DNA of 64,000 nucleotides from positions 804,001 to 868,000 of the forward strand of contig NZ_CP031415.1 of NCBI RefSeq assembly GCF_003367315.1. The letters are read 5' to 3'. The notes under the pieces are model-generated. The model searched no databases and was not told the DNA's origin. It saw only the letters and a list, made by a program, of their open reading frames with translations. The DNA comes from Saccharospirillum mangrovi. GTDB taxonomy: Bacteria > Pseudomonadota > Gammaproteobacteria > Pseudomonadales > Natronospirillaceae. Shown piece by piece: positions 35,896 through 50,174 of the stretch. Made by a program: the position numbers and the translations under genes. How positions within the stretch are numbered: the first letter of the stretch is position 1; each line of letters opens with the position of its first letter.

Positions 35896-38859
35896 TCAGC
35901 CGGCAGAATTCGGTTCGTCTGTTACCTCTGGTAACAGGGTGTGCAAGGGTAACCGAATTGTGAAACGAGTGCCAAGCCCGTCGGCGTGAAAGGCCGGGCT
36001 TTCCACGCTGATGTGGCCGTAGTGTTCTTCAACAATGGTGTAGGCCAAAAACAGCCCCAGGCCCGTGCCTTTGCCGACTTCCTTGGTGGTGAAGAAAGGA
36101 TCGAAGATGTGATCGATCACCTCAGCGTCGATGCCGGTACCGCGATCAACCACCTCGACCAGCACGCTTTCGCCATCGACGGTGGCTTCAATATCAACGG
36201 ATTCGCCAGCCGGGCTGGCATCGCGGGCGTTGCCGAGCAGATTGATAAACACCTGGCTGAGCCGTTGCGGTTCGCACAGCAACACCAGTTGCGGGTCGAT
36301 GTGGTTATCGAATTCGACCGTCTGGGTGTCGCGCGACAGCGACAGCAGGTCGATGGCGTCCTGCACCACCTGACGCAGCGGATAGGGCTGATGTTCGGTC
36401 TTGCCGTCGTCCTGCTGGCCGGCGTGAGCGAAGTTGACCAGCGAGCGCACGATGCGGGTGACGCGCTTGGCCTGGTCGCGAATCTGGTCGGCAATCTGTT
36501 GCAGTTCGGCCGGGTCGGTGACGTAGCGCAGATCCTGCGCCAGGCAATCGATGCCGGTGATGGGGTTGCCGATTTCGTGGGCAACGCCAGCGGCCAGGCG
36601 GCCAATCGACGCCAGGCGCTCCGAATGCACCAGTTCCGATTCCAGCAACTTGTGCTCGGTTTCGTCTTCCAGCAGCACCACCCGGCCTTCGTCCATCGGC
36701 TGCCGCAATACCGGCCCGGGTGCCTGATGCAGACTGAACCAGCGTTTACCCGGACCTTGGGCGTTGGGCTGTTCGACGGTCAGCTTGTTGGCGCCGCCTT
36801 TAATGAAATTGTCGAGCAGGTCGTACCAGTTGGCGGGCAGGCTATCCAGGCGCGCGCCAATGGCTTCCTGTTCGCTGATGCCGGTCATCTCGGCCATAAC
36901 GCGGTTCCACAGCAGAATTTCGCCGTCGTTGGCCAGGTAACAGACGCCAATCGGCAGGTTGTACAGCGTTTCGCGGTGGTGGCGGCGCAGCCGGTCAAGT
37001 TCTGCTGCCATGCCGGTGAGCTGATGGTGAAAACCATCGAGCCGTTGTTCGAAGAAATGAATGTCGTCGCGCTCGACATTGCCGTGTTGCTCGTAAGGCA
37101 GTGCGCGCGCGACCAACGCCTGCGCCACGCTCGGCCCCATCAGGCCCGACAGGTTGGCTTCAATGGTGTCGCGCAATCGGCGCAACGCATACGGCCGATA
37201 TTCACCGATTGGGAAACCCAGTGTTTTCAGCGCACGTTTCACTTCGCGCTCGGCCATGATGCGGCCTAACGGCCGGCTTAGCGCTTCAATAAAGGCTTCG
37301 GCATTGCGCGCTTTCAGCGGCAGGCGATGGCGTCGGTCAACCGAGGTAATAACGCAGGTCTGCGCCGCTTCGCGTTCTTCCGGGCTGGTGCGGGTAAACA
37401 CCGACACCAGAATGAACACCAAGGTATTGAGTGCCAGAGAACTGAGCGTGGTCATCGACCAATGGTCAGTCTTCAGCGCGAATTGCAACGGCAGCCGGGT
37501 CGTCAGATGCAGGCTGTCGGTAACCAGCGGCACCAGCAGGCTGACCGCCCAGACCAGGAGCCCGACCAGCAAACCAGCGATGTAGCCTTTGCGATTGGCG
37601 CCGGCCCAGAACAGCAAGCCGAGAATGCCGGGCAGCAATTGCAGCAAGCCGGTAAAAGCGGTGATGCCGAGCGACGACAGGTTCTGCAACTGCCCCAAAA
37701 ACAGATACAGGCAATACGACAGGCCGATCACCACGCCGATCAGTATCCGCCGCACCCACAGCAACCAGCGGTATACATCGGTGTTGAAACTGGGTTTGTG
37801 GAACGGCAGCACCAGATGGTTCAACGCCATCGACGCCAGCGCGATGGACGCCAATACGGTAATGCCGGCCGCGGCCGACAAGCCGCCCAAAAACGCCAGC
37901 CACACCAGCCAGGGTTCTTTCAGCACCAGGCCCAGACCGAGCGAGAAATATTCCGGGTTCACCGGCGCGCCCAGGCTCATACCGGCCCAGAAAATCGGCA
38001 TGATGGGCAACGCCATCAACAGCAGATAAATCGGCACCGCCCAGGCGACTAAACGCAGGCGTTTGGGATCGGCGTTTTCGCGGAACAGCAGTTGGAATAA
38101 ATGCGGCAACACCAAGGGTGCGGCGATGAACATCAACAGCAGCGAAAACCATTGCACCGGCGGCAGCGGTTCAATGGCGCGGTTGACCGGCAGACTCGAC
38201 GGCCATTCCAGCAGCGGTGCCCAACCGCCAACCAGATGCTTCAACGCCACCGCGCCCAACACCAGCAAGACGATCAATTTGAACGCCGACTCGAACGCCA
38301 GCGCGAACAGCAAACCGGGATGTTTCTCGCTCGGCGTTACATCGCGTGCGCCAAACAACAATGAAAACGCCAGCAGAATTAAACAGATCAACAGCGCCAG
38401 TGGCTTGGCTTGGGTTTGCGGGTCGAGCCGGGTCAGGGTGTCGGTGATGGCCTGAATTTGCAGCGCCAGCAACGGCAGCATGGCGAGCAACACCGCCAGC
38501 GCCGTAACCAGACCGGCCCAGCGGCTGCGGTAACGAAAGGCAAACAGATCGGCCAGCGAGGCCAGTTGATAGCTGCGCGCCAGATCGTGCACCGGGCGCA
38601 GAATAATGGCGGAAAACATCAGCGCCACCGCCATGCCTAAATAGTAGGCGAGGTAACCGTAGCCGACTTCGTAAGCCAGACCGACGCTGCCGTAAAACGC
38701 CCAGGCGCTGCAATAAACGCCAATCGACAACACATACACCAGCGGATGTTGCGTCAGCCATTGTGGCACCCAACCGCGTTCGGCGGCGTAGGCGATCAGA
38801 AACAACACCAGCAGATAGCCGAGGCCAACGGCGAGCAGAAACTCCCAGCGAAATTCCAT
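35896..38859 (-). CDS. cbrA: hybrid transporter-sensor histidine kinase CbrA
   Basis: 987 residues: an N-terminal SLC5/sodium-solute-symporter-like half with about 13 membrane helices (to roughly 490), a linker, a PAS domain (YNLPIGVCYLANDGEILLWNRVM, about 620-720), HisKA with His761 in GVAHEIGNP, and HATPase with LLGNARDAS, DRGTGID and GKGTGLGL. It senses carbon/nitrogen status, possibly linked to histidine uptake, and phosphorylates CbrB. Its ATG overlaps the stop of the tiny gene before it by one base. Confidence 0.94.
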   Translation of the reverse strand: MEFRWEFLLAVGLGYLLVLFLIAYAAERGWVPQWLTQHPLVYVLSIGVYCSAWAFYGSVGLAYEVGYGYLAYYLGMAVALMFSAIILRPVHDLARSYQLASLADLFAFRYRSRWAGLVTALAVLLAMLPLLALQIQAITDTLTRLDPQTQAKPLALLICLILLAFSLLFGARDVTPSEKHPGLLFALAFESAFKLIVLLVLGAVALKHLVGGWAPLLEWPSSLPVNRAIEPLPPVQWFSLLLMFIAAPLVLPHLFQLLFRENADPKRLRLVAWAVPIYLLLMALPIMPIFWAGMSLGAPVNPEYFSLGLGLVLKEPWLVWLAFLGGLSAAAGITVLASIALASMALNHLVLPFHKPSFNTDVYRWLLWVRRILIGVVIGLSYCLYLFLGQLQNLSSLGITAFTGLLQLLPGILGLLFWAGANRKGYIAGLLVGLLVWAVSLLVPLVTDSLHLTTRLPLQFALKTDHWSMTTLSSLALNTLVFILVSVFTRTSPEEREAAQTCVITSVDRRHRLPLKARNAEAFIEALSRPLGRIMAEREVKRALKTLGFPIGEYRPYALRRLRDTIEANLSGLMGPSVAQALVARALPYEQHGNVERDDIHFFEQRLDGFHHQLTGMAAELDRLRRHHRETLYNLPIGVCYLANDGEILLWNRVMAEMTGISEQEAIGARLDSLPANWYDLLDNFIKGGANKLTVEQPNAQGPGKRWFSLHQAPGPVLRQPMDEGRVVLLEDETEHKLLESELVHSERLASIGRLAAGVAHEIGNPITGIDCLAQDLRYVTDPAELQQIADQIRDQAKRVTRIVRSLVNFAHAGQQDDGKTEHQPYPLRQVVQDAIDLLSLSRDTQTVEFDNHIDPQLVLLCEPQRLSQVFINLLGNARDASPAGESVDIEATVDGESVLVEVVDRGTGIDAEVIDHIFDPFFTTKEVGKGTGLGLFLAYTIVEEHYGHISVESPAFHADGLGTRFTIRLPLHTLLPEVTDEPNSAG

Positions 38860-39026
38860 CAGCGCCGGCTCCGCAGATATTCAGCCAGGCCGTTAACGGC
38901 GATCAGCCCAGCCCAGATCAGAAACGGCAGCGGCCACAGATCGGTCCGGCCGGCCCAGCCCAGGGTGAACGGCAGCAACAGATACAACGGCAGAATCAAG
39001 AGTTTCAGCAGGATCGACAGTGACAT
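38859..39026 (-). CDS. cbrX: CbrX-like small membrane protein upstream of cbrA
   Basis: A 55-residue reading frame whose TGA shares its last base with the cbrA ATG. The peptide starts MSLSILLKLLILPLYLLLPF and has a second hydrophobic stretch LPFLIWAGLIAVNGL, then a basic end LRSRR, so it likely crosses the membrane twice. The position, size and coupling match CbrX, described upstream of cbrA in Pseudomonas; the symbol is given by analogy. It probably sets cbrA translation or assembles with CbrA. Confidence 0.72.
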   Translation of the reverse strand: MSLSILLKLLILPLYLLLPFTLGWAGRTDLWPLPFLIWAGLIAVNGLAEYLRSRR

Positions 39027-39118
39027 GGACGCATCGAATCAAAAGGCGGCGGCCATGGTACCGCCGAAGGCGGGAATTGGTAAGAGCACCGCCGACGGCG
39101 GTTTGACAGCAGCGTGCT

Positions 39119-40657
39119 TCAGTCCGGATCGGGGTAGCGGCGTTTGATGTCGGCGAACTCGTCGAAATCGGCCAGCAGAATATCCACCAGCGCCGGATCA
39201 AAATGTTGGCCGCGTTCTTTTTCGAACAGAGCGCGTACATGATCCAGCGACCAGGCATCTTTGTAGCAACGCTTGCTCGACAGCGCATCAAACACGTCGG
39301 CCAACGCCGTAATGCGGCCGCCGAGGCTGATGGCTTCGCCTGCCAGCCCCGTCGGGTAGCCTTTGCCATCCCAGCGTTCGTGGTGTTCGCGGGCAATCAG
39401 CGCGCCCATTTTCAGGATCGGCTTGTCGGTGTGGCTGAGCAGGTCGTAGCCGCGTTGGGCGTGGCTTTGCATTACCGTCCATTCGTCGGGATCGAGCGGG
39501 CCGGGTTTGTTCAGAATGGCATCGGGAATGGCGATCTTGCCTAAGTCGTGCAGCGGCGCGGCTTCGCGAATCAAACGCGCCTCGGCTTTGGGCAGGCCGG
39601 CTTTTTGCGCCAGCAGAAAACTGATTTCCGCCACCCGGCGCAAATGCTGGCCGGTTTCGCGTGAGCGATGTTCCACCGCATCGCCAAGCAAATAGACGAC
39701 TTCGCGCTGGCTGTCTTCCAACTCGGTACGCAGCGCCAGGTTTTCAAAGGCGGTCAAGGCGTTCTGGCAGAAGACTTCCAGCAGATGCCGCTCCATCGCA
39801 TTGCGTGTAATCAGCCCGCGCAGAAACAGCACGCTCAGGTGCATTTCACTGGAGCGATACAAACACAGATAGCCGCCGTCGAGTTGCTGGGCGCGAAAGC
39901 CGGTGTGCTGGCTCTTGATGAAATCCTGGGCGGTGTCCGGCAGCAGGTCGGCCACGGGTCGGCCGATTTGCTGAATGTACTGGCCGGTGCCGGCGACAAC
40001 GGTCAGCCGGCCGAATTGTTCGTGCGCTGCCACGCCTTCACACAGGGCATACAGCGCGTCTTCGTCGGGCGACAGGATGGCGGAAATCTGTTCCAGAATG
40101 CCGTGGGCAAAATCCTGAATAAAGGTGTGTTGTTGCAGTTGGGTCGAGGCATCAAGAATGCGCTCCAGCCCCTGGCGATTGCGCTCCAGCGCTAGAATGT
40201 CGCGGTAGGAACGCAGGCAGGAATACAGCAGGGTGTGCATCTTGCCGCGTGTCAGTTCGGTTTTCTCTTTGTAATCGTTGATGTCGTAGTCGGCGATGAT
40301 GGTTTCTTCCGGCGCCTGGCCGGGTTGGCCGGTGCGCAGCACGATGCGCATAAAGGAATTGCGCAACTGATCGCGGATGACTTCCACCATGTCCAGGCCG
40401 GCGTGTTCGGTTTCCATCACCACATCGAGCAGACACAGCGCCAGATCCGGATGCTGTCGCACCTGCTCAATGCCTTCGGCGGCACTGAAGGCGTGCAGAA
40501 AGTGCAGCGGTCGGCCGTCAAAATGGAAGTTGCGCAACGCCAGCGTGGTGATGGTGTGCACTTCATCGTCGTCATCCACGATCAGCACCTTCCAGGGTTT
40601 CTGTTCGGTGCGCTGGTCGTTGGGTTGTTCGTCGGCAAATACCAGTTCGTCGCTCAT
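39119..40657 (-). CDS. response regulator with DUF3369 and HD-GYP domains (c-di-GMP phosphodiesterase)
   Basis: 512 residues: receiver (22-150) with phosphoacceptor Asp78 in LCLLDVVMETEHAG, a DUF3369 sensor-like region (about 170-320) and an HD-GYP domain with His370-Asp371 (PLHDLGKIAIPDAI) and intact HHERWDGKGYP. The catalytic signature is complete, so it should hydrolyse c-di-GMP. It follows its likely kinase gene by 16 bases, making a two-component pair. Confidence 0.93.
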   Translation of the reverse strand: MSDELVFADEQPNDQRTEQKPWKVLIVDDDDEVHTITTLALRNFHFDGRPLHFLHAFSAAEGIEQVRQHPDLALCLLDVVMETEHAGLDMVEVIRDQLRNSFMRIVLRTGQPGQAPEETIIADYDINDYKEKTELTRGKMHTLLYSCLRSYRDILALERNRQGLERILDASTQLQQHTFIQDFAHGILEQISAILSPDEDALYALCEGVAAHEQFGRLTVVAGTGQYIQQIGRPVADLLPDTAQDFIKSQHTGFRAQQLDGGYLCLYRSSEMHLSVLFLRGLITRNAMERHLLEVFCQNALTAFENLALRTELEDSQREVVYLLGDAVEHRSRETGQHLRRVAEISFLLAQKAGLPKAEARLIREAAPLHDLGKIAIPDAILNKPGPLDPDEWTVMQSHAQRGYDLLSHTDKPILKMGALIAREHHERWDGKGYPTGLAGEAISLGGRITALADVFDALSSKRCYKDAWSLDHVRALFEKERGQHFDPALVDILLADFDEFADIKRRYPDPD

Positions 40658-40673
40658 ATCAAAACCCCTCTGC

Positions 40674-42299
40674 TCAAAGCCCTTCGGCCAGCTCAGCGTT
40701 GGTCTTCAGCGGTAGCGTGATGCGGAAGCGGCAGCCATCGTGTGGCGGGCTGTGAATCTGGATGCGGCCGCCGAGTTTGCCGGTTACCAGATTGAACACA
40801 ATGTTCATGCCCAGACCGCTGCCGCCGCTGGATCGGCGCGTGGTATAGAACGGGTCGAAAATGTGCTTGAGCGTTTCCTCGCTCATGCCCACTCCGTTGT
40901 CTTCGTACACCAGACTGATGCGGTGGTTGCTGGCCGCGGCGCTGGAAAAGCGAATCTGGCCGACGCGCTGGCCATCGTCGAAACCGTGCATCAGTGAGTT
41001 GATCACCAGATTGGTGACTACCTGCGCCAGCGCACCGGGTGAAAGCCGGGTCGTGACATCAGGCTCAATGTCGTTGATGACCTCGATGGGCGCGTTTTTG
41101 TATTTGGGTTTCAAACTGGTCAGCACTTCGTCGATGTAAGCGTGCAAATTAATGTGACGCAGCTCTTCGCTGGTTTGATCGACCGCCACCTGTTTGAACG
41201 AACGAATCAATTGCGCAGCGCGATCCAGATTGGCCGACAGCAAATCGCCGGTTTCCAGGCATTCGCTGAAAAACCGTTCCAGGTCGGATTTTTTCAGTTG
41301 ATTGTTGCCCAACGCACGTTGCGCCGTACGCGCTTCCGAGGTCAGATGGCTGGCCGCTGTGATGGATATTCCCAGCGGTGTGTTTACCTCGTGCGCCACG
41401 CCGCTGACCAGATTACCCAGCGACGCCAGTTTTTCGCTTTGCAGCAATTCTTCCTGAGCAATTTTCAGTTTCTCCAGCGAGTCAGTCAGACTGCGGTTGC
41501 TTTGTTGCAATTGCTCGGTACGTTCGGCAACGACTTTTTCCAGATCGTCCTGGTGCTGACGCAGCGCTTTGTCGCGTTCGATCAGGTTGTCATGTTGGCG
41601 GTTAAACACTTCGTACAGCTGACCAATTTCATCGCGTCGGCCTTCCAGCAATGGCTCGCGTTGCTGGCTCCATTGGGTGAAATCGTCCGGCGAAATGCGT
41701 TGCACGTATTCGCTGAAATGGCGAATTGGCCGTGCCACCAAACGTTGTACGACCCAATACAAAGCCGCCAGTAAAAAAACAATGGCGACGATGGCCGATA
41801 CCAGCGCGCCGCCGAGTACCAGGCTGACCTGATTGCGGATCAGTTCGTTATCCGAACGCAGGTAAATCCAGCCAATGGTGGTGGGCGTGTCGTTGAAATC
41901 GTGAATCACCGGTGTGGCGATAATCAGGGCGTTTTCGGTCGCCAGTTCCGTGCGCTCTTCGGTGGGCTGCAACCAATCCGGATCGCGGTCTGACAGGTCG
42001 CCCAAGTGCAGATTGATCTCGCCCTCAATCGATTGAATCGCCACGCCGGAAATGTACGGATCGCGCAGCAATGCTTCGGCCGCACGCGCCACATTGGCGC
42101 TGTCGAACGCCCAGATGGATTCGTTGATCAGCGGCAACATGTTGCTCAAGGAGGCATCGACGTTCTGGTCGCGCAGGTTTTCCATGGTCCGCGTCAGCGT
42201 CCACGACTGCATCAATATCGTCACCAGAATGGCGCAGGCCACACCCAGAGTGATGGCCGCCAGTAAGCGCCTGGCGAGAAAAGCATTGACCTGAAACAT
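40674..42299 (-). CDS. membrane sensor histidine kinase
   Basis: 541 residues from ATG 42299. Two membrane helices (about 12-30 and 165-190) flank a periplasmic sensor of about 130 residues, followed by HAMP, a coiled coil, HisKA with His303 in SGVAHEVNTPLG and HATPase (NLVINSLMHG, YEDNGVGM, GSGLGM). The next gene encodes a REC-DUF3369-HD-GYP regulator, its probable partner, so an unknown periplasmic signal would feed into c-di-GMP breakdown. A longer upstream frame (to 42431) has no signal or membrane character and is less likely. Confidence 0.91.
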   Translation of the reverse strand: MFQVNAFLARRLLAAITLGVACAILVTILMQSWTLTRTMENLRDQNVDASLSNMLPLINESIWAFDSANVARAAEALLRDPYISGVAIQSIEGEINLHLGDLSDRDPDWLQPTEERTELATENALIIATPVIHDFNDTPTTIGWIYLRSDNELIRNQVSLVLGGALVSAIVAIVFLLAALYWVVQRLVARPIRHFSEYVQRISPDDFTQWSQQREPLLEGRRDEIGQLYEVFNRQHDNLIERDKALRQHQDDLEKVVAERTEQLQQSNRSLTDSLEKLKIAQEELLQSEKLASLGNLVSGVAHEVNTPLGISITAASHLTSEARTAQRALGNNQLKKSDLERFFSECLETGDLLSANLDRAAQLIRSFKQVAVDQTSEELRHINLHAYIDEVLTSLKPKYKNAPIEVINDIEPDVTTRLSPGALAQVVTNLVINSLMHGFDDGQRVGQIRFSSAAASNHRISLVYEDNGVGMSEETLKHIFDPFYTTRRSSGGSGLGMNIVFNLVTGKLGGRIQIHSPPHDGCRFRITLPLKTNAELAEGL

Positions 42300-42403
42300 G
42301 TCACTACTCGTAAGTGTCTGTCGCAAGATTAGGTCGCGCTGGCGGGTTTCGCCAGTTGGCAAAGAACGCAGAAAGGCAACCGCGGGTCGATGGCTCGGCG
42401 CGG

Positions 42404-42910
42404 CTAATCGGTATTGATCTGCACCGGGCATTGCGGGTGCTGGCAGGTACGGGTATCACACAGACGGCAGGTGCGGTCGCAGCCGGCTTCATCGAACTCC
42501 ATACTGGCTAACATTTTCTGCATCAGCTGCTCTAAGGCCAGGCGTTCCTCGGCGTTCAACACCGACAAACAATCGCTGAGAAAACTCTGCTTCTCGCGCA
42601 AAATGGATTTGCGAACCGCCTTGCCTTTCGGCGTCAAAGCGAGATGGGTAAAGCGGCTGTCGGTGCCACTTTTGGTTTTGGTAATCAGGTCGTCCGCTTC
42701 GAGCCTGGCGACAACGCGTGTCGCGGCCGAATGCGTTTCAACTGCCAGGCTGGAGCGTAAATCATCAATCGTCGGATTATGCCGACTGGCAATCTGGTTC
42801 AACGCTATGGTGCCGCCTTCCGAACGGCCGGATTTTGATTGCAGTCGACTGTTCAGCCGGTCGGCAAGGGTCAGCGCAAAAGCGCCCAGAATGTTCTCTA
42901 AATAGGCCAT
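42404..42910 (-). CDS. MarR-family regulator with Cys-rich C-terminus
   Basis: 168 residues. The winged HTH core is present (DLRSSLAVETHSAATRVVARLEADDLI, SRFTHLALTPKGKAV, read in parts). The last 25 residues carry five cysteines (144, 148, 151, 156, 161) in CDRTCRLCDTRTC plus a His and a final Cys, resembling a metal or redox site. It ends the peptide/radical SAM/MFS gene group on the same strand and is its probable regulator. Confidence 0.86.
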   Translation of the reverse strand: MAYLENILGAFALTLADRLNSRLQSKSGRSEGGTIALNQIASRHNPTIDDLRSSLAVETHSAATRVVARLEADDLITKTKSGTDSRFTHLALTPKGKAVRKSILREKQSFLSDCLSVLNAEERLALEQLMQKMLASMEFDEAGCDRTCRLCDTRTCQHPQCPVQINTD

Positions 42911-42978
42911 GCACGCACACCCTCAACGGTTTCGCCGAAGTGTATGCGCGCCGCATGTATGGGGCAAATTTGCCCGCG

Positions 42979-44193
42979 CTAGGCCGGTTGAGTGGCAAGT
43001 TTGTCGGCGGACCAAAGCAATGGCAGTGCAATGATTAATGCTGCCAGCAACAGCCCCGAAATCGCCGCCGCCGCAAGCTCCAGGCTGAACAAAGTTGCCA
43101 GCGTACCCACCAGAAAACTGCCGACCGGCATGCCTGCATAACCAATGACTCGAAACGCGGAATTGGCGCGGCCGAGTAACTCAGCCGGCGTCAACCGTTG
43201 TCGAAATGCGGTGATGCAGACAAACCAGAAACTGAGTCCGAACCCAGCCAGGAACGTCGTTCCCCAAACGATTTCAACATGCCTGACATAGGCTGGCACG
43301 ATGAGTAAGGCCGCCGTGCCCAAGCCATCGAGTAAAACCGCCAGCCGTACCTCAATGGCATTGGGCACATAGCGAATGAACAGCGCGCCCGTCATAGCAC
43401 CAAAGGCATAAGCGGCGAACATGATTCCGTAACGGCTTGGGTCCAATCCCAAATAGTGTTCGCCGGTCACAAAAATAACGAACGACGTTAGAAAAGCGCC
43501 AAATGCCACCGACAGAAAAAACGTAAGAATGGTTAACGCCGATAGATGCGGGTTGGAAAAAATAAATCGAAATCCTGCCAGAATGTACTGAAACGTAATG
43601 GCGGTCTGATTGTTTATTGGCAGTGCGGGAATTGCCTTTCCGACCAGAAAAACAGCCACCAGAAACGTCACGATAATAATGGCATAGAACAGCGTTGAAC
43701 TGGCGGCAAGTGCAACGCTGGCAATGACCGGGCCGATAAAGTAAGAAAAGCCAAAATCCAGAAACAATACCATGGAATAGAAAATCGATAATTTGGTGCC
43801 ACTCATCAGCAACGGCGGCAACGTCATCATGTAAGCCTCAGCCGAAACAACGATGATGCCTGCCATCATGGAGTAGCCAAAAACCGACAGTAAGTTGGCG
43901 TTGGTGGTAAAGCTAAACACTAAGACAGCAACAAAAAACACCGAAAAAATAATCAGGGCGTTTAAAGCCAGGCGTTTTTTATTTTGTCGATCCAGAATGG
44001 TACCGACAACGATACCAAACAGCGGCCAGGCGATTGAAAACAAACCCTGAGCCCAACTGACGCCCGATACCGAAAGGTTTGCCTGAACGGCAATCAACGG
44101 TACGGAGGTTCGCAGCGCACCGCTGATAAACGCCAATAAGATGACCAGCAGGCAGAAATAGCGAAGGTGTTTTTCGGCCAATAATTCGTACAT
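42979..44193 (-). CDS. MFS transporter
   Basis: 404 residues with twelve predicted helices; the loop 2-3 signature is GIVVGTILDRQNKKRLAL, close to the G-x-x-x-D-R-x-x-x-R MFS motif. It starts ten bases after the radical SAM gene stop, so the two are co-transcribed. It resembles drug/metabolite exporters rather than sugar importers. The A+T-richer codon use sets it apart from flanking core genes. The likely role is export or import of the product of the cassette. Confidence 0.88.
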   Translation of the reverse strand: MYELLAEKHLRYFCLLVILLAFISGALRTSVPLIAVQANLSVSGVSWAQGLFSIAWPLFGIVVGTILDRQNKKRLALNALIIFSVFFVAVLVFSFTTNANLLSVFGYSMMAGIIVVSAEAYMMTLPPLLMSGTKLSIFYSMVLFLDFGFSYFIGPVIASVALAASSTLFYAIIIVTFLVAVFLVGKAIPALPINNQTAITFQYILAGFRFIFSNPHLSALTILTFFLSVAFGAFLTSFVIFVTGEHYLGLDPSRYGIMFAAYAFGAMTGALFIRYVPNAIEVRLAVLLDGLGTAALLIVPAYVRHVEIVWGTTFLAGFGLSFWFVCITAFRQRLTPAELLGRANSAFRVIGYAGMPVGSFLVGTLATLFSLELAAAAISGLLLAALIIALPLLWSADKLATQPA

Positions 44194-44203
44194 ATCGTCT
44201 CCG

Positions 44204-45625
44204 TTACGATGCGCTAAAAACTTCGGTTGTGCCGTCGAGTTTGATCGGCGCGTTCATCATGTCGTCGATGAAACCGTCGATGATGCTTTTATCGATTTGC
44301 GGCAGCAGGAAGAAAGTAAGACTGGAGTACCATTGCCAACCCAATTGAGTGAGTTCCAGGTTGAAGTGGTCTTCGGTAACCAGGCCTGCCCGGATGACGT
44401 TGGTTAAATTCTGGTAGGTCACCGGATCGACGTTTTCCCAATCAATTCGGCTTTTGTCGGCGTAGCCACTGTAGGGCAACCGCATACACAGTGCTTTCGA
44501 CGCCTGTTGTGCTGCGGGGACCCAGTTGAAGTGCACTGTTGGCGTTCCCTGTTCTGCGATGTCGGTGATGTAGCGACTGCGGTTCGGGTCGGCACGTGTT
44601 ACCAGATTGCCGAGAATGGACTGGGCGGACGCGCCAAAACCCACAACGTAATCGTCCTGATAGCCGTGCAGGTATTTGTGATAGCGGAAGTGATTAGCAG
44701 AACTCATGCGCGCGTTGTTCAGCGGTAGCTGATTCGCTTCTTTAACGTAGGTGTGGCCGTTGCACGGCGCGTAACCACAGCCTCGCATAAAGGTGTCGCT
44801 GATCAGACGCATCATCTGTCGATGTGCCAGACTTGAAGGTTTCATGCCTTCATTGGCATAGGATTTGTGTAATTTTGGTGTGATGGAAATGTTGTTGATC
44901 GGGTAGAGATTGATCGCTTCTGGTTTCAACTCGGTCGCGCGTTTTAAGTCGTAGAATAACTCTTCCGCCGATTGATCGTGCATGCCGTACAGAAGGTCAA
45001 AACCCACGTTACCGATGATTTCCTGCGACCAGCGCACGGTGTTTTCAATGTCATCAAAAGTGGCGGTTTGGTCGAACAACGGCCGGAACCGGGTGGAAAA
45101 GGTTTGCACACCGAAGCTGATTCGATTGACGCCAATGTTGCGCGCTGCGATCAGCTTTTCTTCAGTCACACTTTTGGCTTCGCATTCGAGTGTGAATTCG
45201 GCAAGGTTGGTTAGATCAAACTCAGTTTTGAGTATTTTCCCAAGCTGTTGAAGGTGCGCAGCGGACATGATCGAAGGCGTACCACCGCCGATGTAGATGG
45301 TGCGAATAGGCCCTTCCAGAGAGTTAACGAACTCAGCTTTTAACTGGATCTCTTTGAATAATGCCGTCATGTATTCGTCGATTTGATCAGCGCTTTTGTA
45401 AGCCCCTTTTTGAAACGGGCAGAACGAACAGATGGTGTCGCAAAATGGAATGTGAATATAAAGAGAGACTGTGCGGGCTTTGGTAATTCGTTCGGTAATC
45501 GATGGGTTGGTGAAATTTAATTGGCCCCGGTAATCGTCGGAAATTGTGTGAAACAGCGGGTAAGTGAAATTGTAGATGGGCTTTAGCTGATCGAATTTTA
45601 GAAAGGGATGATGGATGAGTTGCAT
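44204..45625 (-). CDS. HemN-like radical SAM protein
   Basis: 473 residues. YIHIPFCDTICSFC holds the [4Fe-4S] cysteines 62, 66 and 69 in a CxxxCxxC motif, followed by YIGGGTPS and RISFGVQTF, typical of the coproporphyrinogen oxidase/HemN superfamily. The CxC extension of true HemN is not seen: after Cys69 comes Pro-Phe. It is therefore unlikely to be the housekeeping coproporphyrinogen III oxidase. An N-terminal extension of about 50 residues precedes the core. It is the first long gene after a seven-codon micro-ORF and precedes the MFS gene, which suggests modification of a small molecule or peptide. Confidence 0.87.
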   Translation of the reverse strand: MQLIHHPFLKFDQLKPIYNFTYPLFHTISDDYRGQLNFTNPSITERITKARTVSLYIHIPFCDTICSFCPFQKGAYKSADQIDEYMTALFKEIQLKAEFVNSLEGPIRTIYIGGGTPSIMSAAHLQQLGKILKTEFDLTNLAEFTLECEAKSVTEEKLIAARNIGVNRISFGVQTFSTRFRPLFDQTATFDDIENTVRWSQEIIGNVGFDLLYGMHDQSAEELFYDLKRATELKPEAINLYPINNISITPKLHKSYANEGMKPSSLAHRQMMRLISDTFMRGCGYAPCNGHTYVKEANQLPLNNARMSSANHFRYHKYLHGYQDDYVVGFGASAQSILGNLVTRADPNRSRYITDIAEQGTPTVHFNWVPAAQQASKALCMRLPYSGYADKSRIDWENVDPVTYQNLTNVIRAGLVTEDHFNLELTQLGWQWYSSLTFFLLPQIDKSIIDGFIDDMMNAPIKLDGTTEVFSAS

Positions 45626-45668
45626 GGCTGTTTACCTCGGTAAGGGACGTGATTTTCGGTGAAAGAGC

Positions 45669-45685
45669 GACCGGTATTACCGGCC
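45669..45685 (-). other. RNA hairpin between the micro-ORF and the radical SAM gene
   Basis: GACCGGT and ACCGGCC surround ATT, giving a compact GC-rich stem (one G-U pair) just 12 bases after the micro-ORF stop. There is no T-run. It could protect the mRNA or attenuate downstream translation. Confidence 0.6.
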
Positions 45686-45696
45686 GCCCGTACTGC

Positions 45697-45720
45697 TTAC
45701 CAGGCGAATTCGCGGAACAT
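45697..45720 (-). CDS. seven-codon micro-ORF MFREFAW (candidate ribosomal peptide precursor or leader peptide)
   Basis: ATG-TTC-CGC-GAA-TTC-GCC-TGG-TAA, preceded by a near-perfect Shine-Dalgarno GGAGGAG with five bases between. It is 71 bases upstream of the radical SAM start and downstream of a long palindrome. Such a strong ribosome site for seven codons would be surprising by chance. Microcin C7 shows that a heptapeptide can be a natural product precursor; here the partner enzyme is a radical SAM protein. Three of the seven residues are aromatic, with a C-terminal Trp. A pure leader-peptide role is the main alternative. No family is recognised. Confidence 0.6.
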   Translation of the reverse strand: MFREFAW

Positions 45721-45725
45721 AACAA

Positions 45726-45732
45726 CTCCTCC
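45726..45732 (-). promoter_or_regulatory. consensus ribosome binding site for the MFREFAW micro-ORF
   Basis: GGAGGAG on the minus strand, complementary to the 16S anti-Shine-Dalgarno, five bases ahead of the ATG at 45720. It is the best ribosome site I noticed in the window and is not positioned for any other start. Confidence 0.8.
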
Positions 45733-45743
45733 CTGTGTGTTGA

Positions 45744-45770
45744 TATATGTGTGCGTAACGCACGCATATA
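45744..45770. promoter_or_regulatory. 27-base palindromic operator candidate for the MarR regulator
   Basis: Arms TATATGTGTGCG and CGCACGCATATA around TAA pair at 11 of 12 positions. It lies 24 bases before the micro-ORF start and within the likely promoter region of the operon that ends in marR; size and symmetry suit a MarR dimer. No good sigma-70 pair could be fixed with certainty. Confidence 0.65.
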
Positions 45771-45855
45771 AGATGTAAGTTTTTCTCCTGGGGTGCAAAT
45801 TCTTTTTCGGTCAGTGTTTCAGAAATGTCCGCAGTTTAAGAAACGGTGGTGAGAT

Positions 45856-46722
45856 TTACTGGTCTGGCGTGAGTGTTTTCCGTCGCTGTAACGAGATATT
45901 AGGCCAGTGCGCCAAGGCGGTTTGAAGCAGGGTTTCTGGTGGTTCGCCGTCAAGCGTCAGACCCAACAACTGCAGTGCCTGTTGCAGGTTTTGGTCGGCG
46001 TTAGCGTCGTCCAACGCCGGGGCGTGGTTTTGCTTGCTGAGCTTTTGGCCGTTGTCGCCGACGACGACCGGAAAGTGCGCGTAGTTTGGTGGGTTCGCAC
46101 CGAGTGTACGAAACAGGGCGCGTTGCCAGGGCGTGGAGTCGAGCAAGTCGATGCCGCGAACAACGTCGGTGATGCCTTGATCGAGATCGTCAACCGTCAC
46201 CGCCAGTTGGTAGGCGAACGGGCCGTCGCGGCGACGCAATACCACATCGCCCAGTTCAGCGGCCAGATCGATGAGTTGTTCACCTTGGTAGCGGTCGGCA
46301 TAACGTTCGATTGTGTTGGGCACTTGCCAGCGTATCGCCGCGTCGGGGCGTGGTTGGCGATGTGCGCGGCAATGGCCGGGGTAGACGGCTGAATCGGCCA
46401 AATCCTTGCGGCTGCAATGGCACCAGAACAATTGGTCGGCAGCGGCCAGTTGGTCGAGGGCGGCGATGTACGCTTCGCTGCGCTGGCTTTGGTAGCGCAC
46501 CGTTTCGTCCCAATGCAGGCCGTGCGCTTCGAGGCTGCGCAAAATGGCGTCGGCTGCGCCGGGTTGTTCTCGCGGTGGGTCCAGGTCTTCGATGCGCACC
46601 AGCCAGACGCCGTTTTGTGTTTTGGCGTCCAGGTAACTGACCAGCGCCGCGACCAGCGAACCCAAATGCAGCGGGCCGGTGGGCGAGGGCGCAAAGCGGC
46701 CGCGGTAGGCTGTGCTTGGCAT
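45856..46722 (-). CDS. gluQ: glutamyl-Q tRNA(Asp) synthetase
   Basis: About 288 residues from ATG 46722, with alternatives at 46734 and 46752. GRFAPSPTGPLHLGSLVAAL is the HIGH-type region, CHCSRKDLADSAVYPGHC holds the zinc-type cysteines, and QKLSKQNHAP is the KMSKS equivalent. It is a truncated GluRS paralogue that lacks the anticodon-binding domain and glutamylates queuosine in tRNA-Asp. In Pseudomonas it sits just upstream of cbrX-cbrA; here about 6.8 kb separate them. Confidence 0.94.
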   Translation of the reverse strand: MPSTAYRGRFAPSPTGPLHLGSLVAALVSYLDAKTQNGVWLVRIEDLDPPREQPGAADAILRSLEAHGLHWDETVRYQSQRSEAYIAALDQLAAADQLFWCHCSRKDLADSAVYPGHCRAHRQPRPDAAIRWQVPNTIERYADRYQGEQLIDLAAELGDVVLRRRDGPFAYQLAVTVDDLDQGITDVVRGIDLLDSTPWQRALFRTLGANPPNYAHFPVVVGDNGQKLSKQNHAPALDDANADQNLQQALQLLGLTLDGEPPETLLQTALAHWPNISLQRRKTLTPDQ

Positions 46723-46801
46723 GGATAACGGCATGAAAGGCGGGGTTCGCATTTGAAGCTCGGCTCGACATTCTGCATGATGCCGTCGCCCCTTCCCAGC
46801 C

Positions 46802-47974
46802 GTGGACCAACCGATGTTGCTCGCCGAACGCACCGCCCGCATTCAACCTTTCCAAGTGATGCAGATTCTCGCTCGTGCCAAAACGCTGGCCGAACAGGGC
46901 CGGTCGGTGATTGGGCTTTATGTCGGTGAGCCGGATTTCGGTACGCCGCAGGCGATTGTTGAAGCTGGGCAGGCGGCGCTGGCGAACGGCCACACCGGTT
47001 ACACCCCGGCGACTGGTCTGCCCGAATTGCGCCGCGCCATCGCTGAACGGTATCGCCGCTGGCATGGCGTCGATCTGGACCCGGCGCGGATTCTGGTTAC
47101 GCCGGGCGGTTCCAGCGCTTTGTTGCTGGCGTTCGCGGCCAGCATCGACAGCGGTCGCGAAGTGTTGCTGCCGGAACCGGGTTATCCGTGCAATCGCAAC
47201 TTTCTTGAAGTGATTGGCGCGCAGCCGGTGTCGGTACCGTTGTCCAACAAGGGCCTGCGTTTGTCGCTGCTGGCGCTGGAAGCGGCGCGGACCGGGCAAA
47301 GCCAGGGTTTGTTACTGGCATCGCCGTGTAACCCGACCGGTCAGGTTTTGACGCTGGAGGAATGGCAGCAAGCCGCCGATTTTGCCCAGCGCCATGGCTT
47401 GGCGTTGTTCGCCGACGAGATTTATCACGGCCTGACCTTCACCGACGCCCTGCCGCCGTCGGCACTGAACGTGACCGATGACGTCTGGGTCACGCAGAGT
47501 TTTTCCAAGTTTTATGGCATGACCGGCTGGCGACTCGGTTGGGCAGTGGTGCCGCCCGACGCCATCGATGCCGCCGAACGGCTGGCGCAAAACCTGTATT
47601 TGTCAGCCCCGTCGATGGCGCAACACGCGGCCTTGGCCGCGTTCGAGCCCGAGGTGGAAGCCGAATGTTTTGCGCGCCGCGACGAACTGCGCGCGCGTCG
47701 CGATTATCTGGCACCGCAACTGGAAGCGCTCGGCTTGCCGTTGTTAGCGCGGCCAGACGGGGCGTTTTATCTGTACGCCGATATGTCGGCTTATGGCGAC
47801 GACGCGCTCGACTGGTGCGATCGCTTGCTCGAAGAAACCGGCGTGGCAATTACGCCGGGCATCGATTTTGGCGGCGCGACGCAGGATCGCGCGGTGCGGA
47901 TTGCGTATACGGCGGAGGTGAAGGTGCTTAAGGAGGCCGTCGCGAGGTTGGCTGCTTTTACCGGGAGACGCTGA
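46802..47974 (+). CDS. pyridoxal-phosphate class I/II aminotransferase
   Basis: 390 residues with GLYVGEPDFGTP, ASPCNPTGQVL, FADEIYHGLTF and the Schiff-base lysine at about Lys236 in SFSKFYGMTGWRLGW, the fold type I aminotransferase pattern. The substrate is not identifiable. The start is GTG 46802, with ATG 46814 as an alternative. The final codons (TGRR and stop) are made by the dispersed GGGAGACG repeat, so the C-terminus may have been replaced. Divergent from gluQ. Confidence 0.9.
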   Translation: MDQPMLLAERTARIQPFQVMQILARAKTLAEQGRSVIGLYVGEPDFGTPQAIVEAGQAALANGHTGYTPATGLPELRRAIAERYRRWHGVDLDPARILVTPGGSSALLLAFAASIDSGREVLLPEPGYPCNRNFLEVIGAQPVSVPLSNKGLRLSLLALEAARTGQSQGLLLASPCNPTGQVLTLEEWQQAADFAQRHGLALFADEIYHGLTFTDALPPSALNVTDDVWVTQSFSKFYGMTGWRLGWAVVPPDAIDAAERLAQNLYLSAPSMAQHAALAAFEPEVEAECFARRDELRARRDYLAPQLEALGLPLLARPDGAFYLYADMSAYGDDALDWCDRLLEETGVAITPGIDFGGATQDRAVRIAYTAEVKVLKEAVARLAAFTGRR

Positions 47975-48053
47975 ACGGGAGACGGGAGACGCCAGTTACA
48001 GCTAACCCAGCGTCTTCCGTCTCCCCGGCGCGCAGCGCCTAAGCGTCTCCCGT
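47962..48053. repeat. dispersed repeat locus B with inverted partner between convergent genes
   Basis: A 31-base copy (47962-47992) and an inverted interrupted version (about 48007-48053) can pair into a long hairpin around a short loop: GGGAGACGGGAGACGC against GCGTCTTCCGTCTCCC. Its left edge supplies the aminotransferase stop and its right edge the Rieske gene stop. Copy A is at 29766. Confidence 0.8.
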
Positions 48054-48362
48054 CAAAACGATCACATCGTTTTGAATAACAAACTCCACCGGCGTCAGAT
48101 TCTCACCCTGGCACGGGCCGGCTAAACAGTGGCCGCTTTCGATCTCGAACAGGGCGCCGTGGGTGGAGCATTGGATCAGCGCGCCGTCCATGTCGAGAAA
48201 TTCGTTTTCCATAAATTCCAGCGCCACGCCCAGGTGCGGGCAGACGTTTTTGTAGACGTAGATTTCGCCGTCTTTGCGCACGGCAAACACCGGGTTGTCG
48301 GGCAAATCGAAGCCCAGCGATCGGCCTTCTTCCAGGTCGTGGACGCTGCACAGTTCGGTCAT
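48039..48362 (-). CDS. Rieske [2Fe-2S] ferredoxin-like protein
   Basis: 107 residues. CPHLGVALEF and CSTHGALFEIESGHC provide the C-x-H and C-x-x-H ligands of a Rieske cluster. There is no membrane segment, so it is a soluble cytoplasmic electron carrier like those of dioxygenases or NirD. The last residues (TGDA) come from the repeat. It precedes hmuV's end by 25 bases on the same strand. Confidence 0.92.
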   Translation of the reverse strand: MTELCSVHDLEEGRSLGFDLPDNPVFAVRKDGEIYVYKNVCPHLGVALEFMENEFLDMDGALIQCSTHGALFEIESGHCLAGPCQGENLTPVEFVIQNDVIVLTGDA

Positions 48363-48387
48363 CGGTTTCCTCGTTTTTTCATTTCAA

Positions 48388-49167
48388 TTAATGCGTGATG
48401 ATCAGCGGACCGGCGTGATGCGGATGCGGTTGCACCGTCACCTCGAGCCCAAAATGCTGTTGAATGTTGGCGGCGGTCAGCACTGAATCCGGTGTGCCGC
48501 TGCACACGGCGTGGCCGCGATTCAGCAGCAGAATGCGATCGGCGTAATGCGCCGCCAGATTCAGATCGTGCACCACCAGCAACACGCCAACGCCGCGCCG
48601 GGCAAACTGGCGCACCGCCTGGAACAACGTCTGCTGATGGTGCAGATCAAGTCCGCTGGCCGGTTCGTCGAGCAGCAAAAAGCGGTCGCCTTCCGGTTGG
48701 GCGTCCCAGATTTGTGCCAGCACCCGCGCCAGATGCACGCGTTGACGCTCGCCACCGCTGAGGGTGTGAATGTGCCGTTCCGCGAAGTCGGTTAAGTCAC
48801 ACAGCGCCAGGGCATCGGCGACGATGGCGTCGTCCCGCGCCCGGCCTGTGGCGTGCGAATAGCGGCCAAGGGCGACAACATCGGCGACCTGAAAATCGAA
48901 GTTTAGCCGGTGGTGTTGTGGCAGCACCGCGAGCAGCCGCGCGCGGTCCGGGCCGTTCCAGGCGCGCAGCGCTTTGTCGTGCAGGCGCACGGTGCCGGAA
49001 CTGGGTGTTAATTCGCCGCTGAGCAATTGCAGCAGGCTCGATTTACCCGCGCCGTTCTGGCCGATCAGCGCCAACACTTCGCCCGCTTTTACACTCACTG
49101 AAACGTCACTGAGCGTTGCCACGTCGGGCCAGCGATACAGCGTCAGTTGGTCGGCCTGCAAACTCAC
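48388..49167 (-). CDS. hmuV: hemin ABC transporter ATP-binding protein HmuV
   Basis: 259 residues from GTG 49167, which overlaps the permease stop. Walker A GQNGAGKSS, VLPQHHRLNFDFQVADVVALGR (the HmuV-type Q-loop region), signature TLSGGERQRVHLARVLAQ and LLLDEPASGLD support HmuV over other FecE-type ATPases. Imports haem or a related metal chelate with the permease next to it. Confidence 0.9.
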   Translation of the reverse strand: MSLQADQLTLYRWPDVATLSDVSVSVKAGEVLALIGQNGAGKSSLLQLLSGELTPSSGTVRLHDKALRAWNGPDRARLLAVLPQHHRLNFDFQVADVVALGRYSHATGRARDDAIVADALALCDLTDFAERHIHTLSGGERQRVHLARVLAQIWDAQPEGDRFLLLDEPASGLDLHHQQTLFQAVRQFARRGVGVLLVVHDLNLAAHYADRILLLNRGHAVCSGTPDSVLTAANIQQHFGLEVTVQPHPHHAGPLIITH

Positions 49168-50174
49168 GACAGCACCGTCCGCTGGCGCTGAATCAGGTAG
49201 ACAAAAAAAGGTCCGCCGAGCAGCGAAGTAATGATGCCGACCGGCAATTCGGCGGGGCTGATAACGGTGCGCGCCAGCCAGTCGGCCCACAGCGTCAGCA
49301 ACGCGCCGACGCCCAGACTGAGCGGCAACACGCGGCGATGATCCGGCCCGACCAGCAAGCGCACCATGTGCGGCACGACCAGGCCGATAAAACCAATGAT
49401 GCCGGTGAACGCGACCGCCGCACCCACACTGGCAGCGCTGAGATAAACCACTTGTCGCTTTAACCGGCGCACGTCGAAACCTAAATGTCGGCATTCGGGT
49501 TCGCCGAGCAGCAGCGCATTCAGTGGCCGGTACAGCCGCAACGCCAACAGGCTGACGACCAGCAACACGGCTGCCGTCAGCGACACCGAGCGCCAGTCGG
49601 CCGCGCCGAACGAGCCAAGCGACCAGAAAGTCAAAGTACGCAGTTGTTCGTTGCTGGACAGGTAGGCGCACAGGCCGATACCGGCTGCTGCGACCATGTT
49701 GAAAGCGACGCCCGCCAGAATCAGCCGCAGCGGCGAGGCGAGGCTGTCGCGACCGAGCAGCATGACGAGTTGAGTGGCGATCAAACCACCGACGAACGCG
49801 ATGGCCGGCAAGGCAAGGGTCGACAACACCGCCGGCAAGGCCGCCAACGCAGCCGGTGCCAGAATCAGGCTGGCGACGACGGCCAAGGTTGCGCCGCTCG
49901 ATACGCCCATCAAACCGGGTTCGGCCAACGGATTGCGAAACAGACCCTGCACCAAGGCACCGCTCAAGCCGAGCAGCGCGCCAACGCACAGCGCCAACAT
50001 CAATCGTGGCAGGCGAATCTGCCAGACAATCACCGCGTTGATGCCATCGCCCGGGTGCCATAGCGCTTGCCACACCTGCGTCAATTCCAGACTGGACGGC
50101 CCGACGCTCAGCGCCAGCAAGGCCGACAACAGCAACACCGGCGGCAACAACCAGGCGAGCGTGCGCGCCGTCAT
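49164..50174 (-). CDS. hmuU: FecCD-family permease HmuU
   Basis: 336 residues with about ten helices and family motifs RLPRLMLALCVGALLGLSGALVQG, NPLAEPGLMGVSSGA and GFIGLVVPHMVRLL with ..GPDHRRVLP. Paired with HmuV by a four-base overlap. No periplasmic binding protein (HmuT) or outer-membrane receptor lies beside it. Its start overlaps the ahpA stop by four bases. Confidence 0.9.
   Translation of the reverse strand: MTARTLAWLLPPVLLLSALLALSVGPSSLELTQVWQALWHPGDGINAVIVWQIRLPRLMLALCVGALLGLSGALVQGLFRNPLAEPGLMGVSSGATLAVVASLILAPAALAALPAVLSTLALPAIAFVGGLIATQLVMLLGRDSLASPLRLILAGVAFNMVAAAGIGLCAYLSSNEQLRTLTFWSLGSFGAADWRSVSLTAAVLLVVSLLALRLYRPLNALLLGEPECRHLGFDVRRLKRQVVYLSAASVGAAVAFTGIIGFIGLVVPHMVRLLVGPDHRRVLPLSLGVGALLTLWADWLARTVISPAELPVGIITSLLGGPFFVYLIQRQRTVLS

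Follow-up and report, generated by a model that had tools for sequence, protein, structure and literature searches.

Minimal precursor genes are already known from microcin C and the biarylitides, and HemN-like radical S-adenosylmethionine (SAM) enzymes from ribosomal peptide pathways. Radical SAM enzymes act on many ribosomal peptides, and microcin C has its own exporter. The present analysis concerns a cassette on the minus strand of a 64,000-nucleotide stretch of Saccharospirillum mangrovi DNA (contig NZ_CP031415.1, positions 804,001 to 868,000; hereafter the window, in whose coordinates all positions are given), comprising the seven-codon open reading frame (ORF) MFREFAW, a HemN-like radical SAM gene, an MFS transporter gene and a marR-type gene. 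The cassette is very probably a small ribosomal natural product system, with the micro-ORF as precursor, the radical SAM enzyme as modifier of its tryptophan (Trp), the MFS protein as exporter and the MarR protein as repressor. The earlier note had read the locus as a minimal ribosomal natural product system with a modifying enzyme, and short ORFs across the enzyme family supported this, the peptide product being a predicted one. The mark of a ribosomally synthesized and post-translationally modified peptide, an encoded precursor beside a modifying enzyme, was found at the sequence level. What was observed directly is a set of jointly acquired genes, an enzyme that belongs to a distinct clade, short Trp-containing ORFs and repeats that recur beside clade members, and, in several pairs, conservation at the amino-acid level.

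In the proposed scheme, MFREFAW would be the precursor peptide. The HemN-like enzyme, holding two SAM molecules, would place a one-carbon (methyl- or methylene-derived) group on the Trp, or crosslink it; the MFS protein would send the product out of the cell, and the MarR protein would bind a predicted operator palindrome and repress the operon. We infer Trp as the modified residue, and likewise the reaction type, export, regulation and any antimicrobial role. The window fits a leaderless member of a putative family of ribosomally made, radically modified peptides.

MFREFAW with a consensus ribosome site had been proposed as the head of the cassette, and this was borne out: the ORF with its stop codon, the proposed precursor gene, runs from 45720 to 45697 (45697..45720, minus strand), and the ribosome site read from the sequence, GGGAGGAG, lies at 45726..45733 on the same strand. 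Also on the minus strand follow the HemN-like (class C type) radical SAM protein of 473 amino acids, the proposed Trp-modifying enzyme (44204..45625), the MFS transporter, the proposed exporter (42979..44193), and the MarR-type regulator with its C-terminal cysteine cluster (42404..42910), separated by the claimed gaps of 71, 10 and 68 bases, respectively. The 27-base palindrome described upstream of the micro-ORF was also present (45744..45770; 12 of 13 positions pair) and is a candidate MarR operator. Folding indicated a weak hairpin directly 3' of the micro-ORF (45665..45689, minus strand; z -1.3), possibly a partial terminator; when 45560-45880 was scanned, no promoter was detected, and no terminator under a stricter rule. 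Pfam searches of the island proteins returned Radical_SAM, MFS_1 and winged-helix domains, the MarR models scoring below their cut-offs; the regulator and exporter roles are inferred from family and position. The cysteine cluster of the MarR protein, CDRTCRLCDTRTCQHPQC (42404-42520), is possibly involved in metal or redox sensing.

In the window, the cassette is flanked by gluQRS and a HAMP histidine kinase gene. The tblastx matches to these two genes were only 31-157 bases apart in all five congeneric genomes, and in the nearest congener (L114) 31 bases separated the matches ending at window 45868 and starting at 42359. Because the flanking genes adjoin each other in all five congeners, the cassette is an insertion, an acquired island of about 3.5 kb holding the micro-ORF and three genes (42360..45867, minus strand; ends accurate to about 30 bases either way). 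Insertion as one unit argues for treating the micro-ORF and the radical SAM gene as parts of the same system. The suggestion that the long genes are richer in A+T held for 43400-45799, where G+C was 0.45-0.53 against 0.54-0.64 elsewhere in 38000-49999 (600-base steps), but not for 42800-43399, the final third of the MFS gene (G+C 0.57).

A first scan of genome contigs with the window protein alone confirmed no relative of the enzyme, and neither L024 DNA against E. coli genomes nor window DNA against plasmids gave a match. Searching plasmids with tblastn, relatives were found in Klebsiella, Xenorhabdus, Glaesserella, Alicyclobacillus and Cytobacillus, covering 92-100% of the protein at 29-36% identity; one relative was present in the window's own bacterial family (G017). 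The genome scan added at least Pseudomonas (2), Paraburkholderia, Trinickia (2), Aquitalea, Streptomyces (2), Actinocrispum, a Thorarchaeota bin, Vibrio and Tumebacillus. Family counts are lower bounds, since the scan gave at least 80 loci, 17 of the 80 were looked at and L030-L041 were retained. L045, L063, L069, L086 and L097 were set aside, as they read as HemN by sequence. The Tumebacillus genome held three copies of the enzyme, and in its order seven of 14 genomes carried one to three (14 copies in total). At E<=1e-60, counting the window's own genome, the enzyme occurred in 2/369 genomes of the class, 2/390 of the order, 2/22 of the family and 1/398 of the phylum, the second family genome being G017 and the second class genome G228 (L029), whose copy is damaged by an internal stop. 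The phage matches listed (20 of 36) appeared to be of generic HemN type, and viral contigs gave two weak matches.

Phylogenetically, 34 rows from 30 loci formed one group with support of 97/99, apart from the outgroups HemN, HemW, HutW and NocN; a smaller tree of 20 rows gave the same grouping at 99/98. The window enzyme has the HemN-like class C features, namely the CX3CX2C motif and the HemN fold; in the two Vibrio enzymes of the family, the cluster motif is longer by one residue (CX4CX2C). A Tyr corresponding to NocN Tyr34 and HemN Tyr56, which stacks on the second SAM according to an excerpt of PMC12871812, was present in every aligned family row. NocN was not among the 50 top rows of Foldseek or VIA, possibly because the PDB set that they search does not include it.

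A short Trp-bearing ORF was present at 21 of the 30 loci, with Trp as the last residue in 16 and internal in five. The Trp-last ORFs were MFREFAW (window), MENAKILFVKTTVKDKKFATVVW (L004/L120), MESAMELFEVDINDCDLQGLCMW (L024), MENAIELFVSRKNEEHYDFNNVAW (L025), MRDIVWDIVW (L026), MKSAIDLFKTDVTGVTTKGVCLW (L030, Pseudomonas lini, 23 residues), MKSAIKLFKTDITDVTTKGVCMW (L031), MNDVSHYFEPPKVQPMPVKMGVW (L032), MEEVSRYFEAPAVAPMPVKMGGW (L033), MEDIFSYFETDESSFDRINTIAW (L034), MEDILVYFEAPATALLPVKMGGW (L035), and MENQPIIWKNVEPIIWKNAAEPIIWNNEVAPIIW together with MERNILIIW (L130), as well as ORFs of about 50 residues ending SEW (L129, L144, L145) and one of 121 residues ending ASAW (L039). Those with internal Trp were MKKEWVALKNEWVAL (L027); MREWIVVVEN, MREWIIVVEN, MREWIVIVEN and MRKDWLVVV (L128, the L041 locus); eight ORFs by distinct stops at L149, such as MIKEWLTVVEA and MREWIIVAA; MEKNWIIAVERNWIVVQERNWIIVAA and others (L150); and MEKNSWIINVEKNSWIINERNWIVVQERNWIIVAV and others (L151). 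Bacillota loci carried arrays of tiny ORFs and multi-core repeats (PIIW four times), and the Thorarchaeota bin a longer ORF with a Trp end. At L128, L129, L130, L144 and L145, ORFs lay 3' of the radical SAM gene. By the match rule, the ribosome site was weak or absent at L031, L039 and the longer L130 ORF.

A check had been proposed for a conserved ORF of 6-9 codons with a strong ribosome site near homologous radical SAM genes. Short ORFs did lie beside homologues, most with ribosome sites, and in several pairs residues were kept while codons varied. The expected fixed length did not hold (7 to about 50 residues, and one of 121), nor did conservation of the whole sequence, Trp being the conserved feature, and nine of the 30 loci were without a candidate ORF: four of a ligase type (L036, L037, L038, L040), two damaged (L023, L029) and L146-L148. 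At L023, the 5' end is interrupted by what we take to be an IS1-like sequence, and the cluster is further split by an annotated ISL3 transposase.

At 18 family loci (leaving out L023, L029 and further Tumebacillales loci), the 450 bases that precede the first biosynthetic gene were tested for an ATG ORF that was 5-40 codons long, ended in Trp and had a Shine-Dalgarno match of 4 or more. Ten of the 14 non-ligase loci passed, against 0.15 expected from shuffles, compared with none of the four ligase-type loci and neither of two HutW controls. L031 failed at the Shine-Dalgarno filter, L039 on length, and L027 and L041 under the Trp-end rule. The nominal probability of ~1e-18 is not literal, because the criterion was set after several loci had been seen and the relatives are not independent. 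With a similar filter, the L128 region gave three Trp-bearing micro-ORFs (mean 0.17, maximum 3 in 2000 shuffles). For the window itself, 15 ATG ORFs of 5-12 codons had a Shine-Dalgarno match of at least five bases in the 64 kb (8 on the plus and 7 on the minus strand), MFREFAW being the sole one with a terminal Trp. One of 1000 dinucleotide shuffles of the window's 450 upstream bases gave an ORF with a ribosome site and a Trp end, a criterion picked after the relatives had been looked at.

Codon changes were then counted as synonymous and other. The pair L030-L031 differed by 8 synonymous and 4 other changes (nonsynonymous rate, dN, 0.12; synonymous rate, dS, 1.17) and L033-L035 by 7 and 7 (dN 0.21, dS 1.72); L032-L033 gave 6 and 7, and L032-L035 6 and 11, with dS not computable. 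Among the Bacillota arrays the counts (synonymous/other) were 8/1 for the QKWLP pair, 2/0, 2/1 and 0/1 for REWIIVAA pairs, 2/1, 2/1 and 1/2 for the MREWIVVVEN set, and 0/3 for the KQWIVVAAE pair (two valine to isoleucine changes plus a GTG start), the IKEWL pair being identical. L144-L145 gave 14/12 and L129-L144 10/25. Based on these counts, amino-acid constraint is therefore clear in some pairs and weak in others.

Several observations weigh against the proposed scheme. No close homologue was found in which codon conservation of MFREFAW itself could be measured, and with the relatives' peptides it has in common only shortness, R-E and the final Trp. The window enzyme is a long, deep branch inside the clade, joined to no single relative and of unsure placement, and none of the listed gene clusters common to the relatives contains the window's MFS or MarR gene. 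The island holds no protease gene, although a heptapeptide may need none. Three intact, related Bacillota radical SAM genes (L146, L147, L148) had no candidate Trp micro-ORF nearby. When GTG and TTG starts and wider regions were allowed, chance-like Trp frames also appeared at ligase-type loci, namely a GTG frame ending in Trp at L038 and frames containing Trp at L037 and L040.

That the micro-ORF is instead a regulatory leader, at which ribosome stalling at the Trp codon or the stop would act by way of the hairpin to set transcription of the radical SAM operon, is unlikely. The ORF is short with a Trp codon at or near its end, and a hairpin followed the stop in the window and 11 relatives (12 of 12 folded), several of them weak (z from -1.0 to -6.0 relative to mononucleotide shuffles); but a hairpin also follows the precursor gene of microcin C (excerpt of PMC6495379). 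Against it stand the arrays of several ORFs within operons and at their 3' ends (L149, L128) and the cores repeated in a single ORF. Residues far from the Trp are conserved, the Trp is internal in five loci, and the four ligase-type loci without the ORF have peptide ligases. A second reading, in which a haem or tetrapyrrole enzyme of HutW/ChuW type is accompanied by an efflux pump and a regulator and the micro-ORF is incidental, is very improbable. HutW was indeed the best NCBIfam match, but its 180 bits fall below the TIGR04107 cut-off of 400; hutX/hutZ or an anaerobilin reductase, present in the HutW controls L122 and L123, are replaced downstream by MFS and marR genes; and the HutW rows fell outside the clade in both trees, their two loci having no Trp-ending short ORF. 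A HutW/ChuW identity for the window enzyme was accordingly rejected on the sub-cut-off score, the separate clade and the gene neighbourhood. We give very little credence to an enzyme working on a small molecule or free Trp beside a chance ORF; ligase-type relatives may begin from free amino acids and the window is a deep branch, but the strong ribosome site, the rarity of a Trp end by chance and the family pattern speak against it.

Beyond the ribosomal precursor system favoured for the window, the family includes loci of other composition. L036, L037, L038 and L040 encode ATP-grasp proteins beside radical SAM, MFS and SpeD genes, those of the first three with an L-amino-acid-ligase C-terminal domain, and ligase-made peptides apparently replace the ribosomal precursor there. 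The ligase-type clusters in Vibrio bivalvicida (L040 1208-8106) and Actinomycetota probably make peptide natural products. At L129, L144, L145 and L121 the family enzyme has nearby a radical SAM protein that carries a B12-binding domain, identified by Pfam at L129, L145 and L121; L129 has a second B12-type radical SAM protein, as does L145, with the B12 domain below cut-off there. These four loci are a further subtype of the system. At L024, L030 and L031 (Xenorhabdus, Pseudomonas), an ornithine-decarboxylase-like gene follows the MFS gene, hinting at a polyamine-related decoration. At L147, MFS and DUF4760 genes lie downstream of the radical SAM gene.

A homologue of SAM decarboxylase (SpeD) was located near the radical SAM gene at 14 loci, eight confirmed by profile and six assigned by alignment and BLAST clustering. 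The catalytic Ser, His and Cys, given as S63, H68 and C83 for T. maritima in an excerpt of PMC10407285, were invariant in all 14. No clustered SpeD turned up at the window, L023, L026, L027 or any of the 11 Tumebacillales regions; the window's genome has one SpeD, located elsewhere. In NocN, the second SAM is held at its methionine part by Tyr96, Arg153, Asp196 and Ser225 (PMC12871812, in the excerpt). In the alignment column of NocN Arg153 (Arg168 in the window), each of the 15 rows with clustered SpeD (14 loci) had His, Lys or Asn, with an Arg two residues on in 14 of the 15; among rows without SpeD, Arg was kept in the window, L027 and L041 and not in L026 (3/4; Fisher 0.004, leaving out L023, which has His, and L029, which has Arg). 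Thirteen Tumebacillales rows that were included later all had Arg and none had SpeD, making Arg present in 16 of 17 rows without SpeD. The tree suggests a single Arg switch (17 rows, support 97/94), so the SpeD/Arg pattern represents one evolutionary event rather than many. Because SpeD-bearing rows lose the Arg that contacts the second SAM, the pattern suggests that this branch may use decarboxylated SAM as second SAM and radical co-substrate, and it may put aminopropyl-type groups on tryptophan. To our knowledge, no known enzyme makes radical use of decarboxylated SAM. A wider picture can be offered tentatively, and it may well be wrong: one radical enzyme family would take Trp carried either by ribosomal micro-peptides, as in the window, Bacillota and other Proteobacteria, or by ATP-grasp ligase peptides, as in Actinomycetota and Vibrio, one large branch swapping the second SAM for SpeD-supplied decarboxylated SAM, and the window representing the leaderless form that uses SAM and has a bare heptapeptide as substrate.

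No description of this enzyme and peptide family was found in the full-text literature, as judged by title and abstract start; the subscription literature could contain one. What looks new is that minimal precursors and HemN-like radical SAM enzymes are combined with arrays of Trp micro-ORFs, SpeD and the swap to ligases. Annotation easily overlooks genes of 7 to 11 codons, and the clade shows that in Proteobacteria and Bacillota they recur, as arrays, next to a single type of enzyme. The leaderless heptapeptide could readily be synthesized as a substrate for a radical SAM enzyme, and the family offers an apparent swap between ribosome and ligase together with a sharp test of decarboxylated SAM in radical chemistry.

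Among known systems, microcin C resembles the window in that a seven-codon precursor gene (MccA) heads the operon with a hairpin before the first enzyme gene, and its aminopropyl decoration parallels the SpeD of many relatives here (both from the excerpt of PMC6495379). The window has a radical SAM enzyme instead of an MccB-type adenylyltransferase and a C-terminal Trp instead of Asn; with no MccB (ThiF-like) protein among the three island proteins, membership was rejected. A product acting as a Trojan-horse tryptophanyl-tRNA synthetase inhibitor, by analogy with microcin C, was set aside for want of evidence. The biarylitides likewise have a leader-poor minimal precursor gene of 18 bp, at times in multiple copies (excerpt of PMC13417212), but there a P450 acts on MxYxY/H pentapeptides, whereas the window uses a HemN-like radical SAM enzyme; a P450 occurs in three relatives only, and its lack in the island excluded membership. 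HutW/ChuW is the nearest named model and is HemN-like in sequence, but belongs to another clade and another gene neighbourhood. NosN and NocN share with the window enzyme the HemN-family fold, CX3CX2C, the second-SAM-stacking Tyr and an indole-type substrate on a ribosomal peptide (a proposed one for the window), the sequence match lying mainly over the radical SAM domain. They close the side ring of a many-enzyme thiopeptide, whereas the window enzyme is the sole modifier in its cassette.

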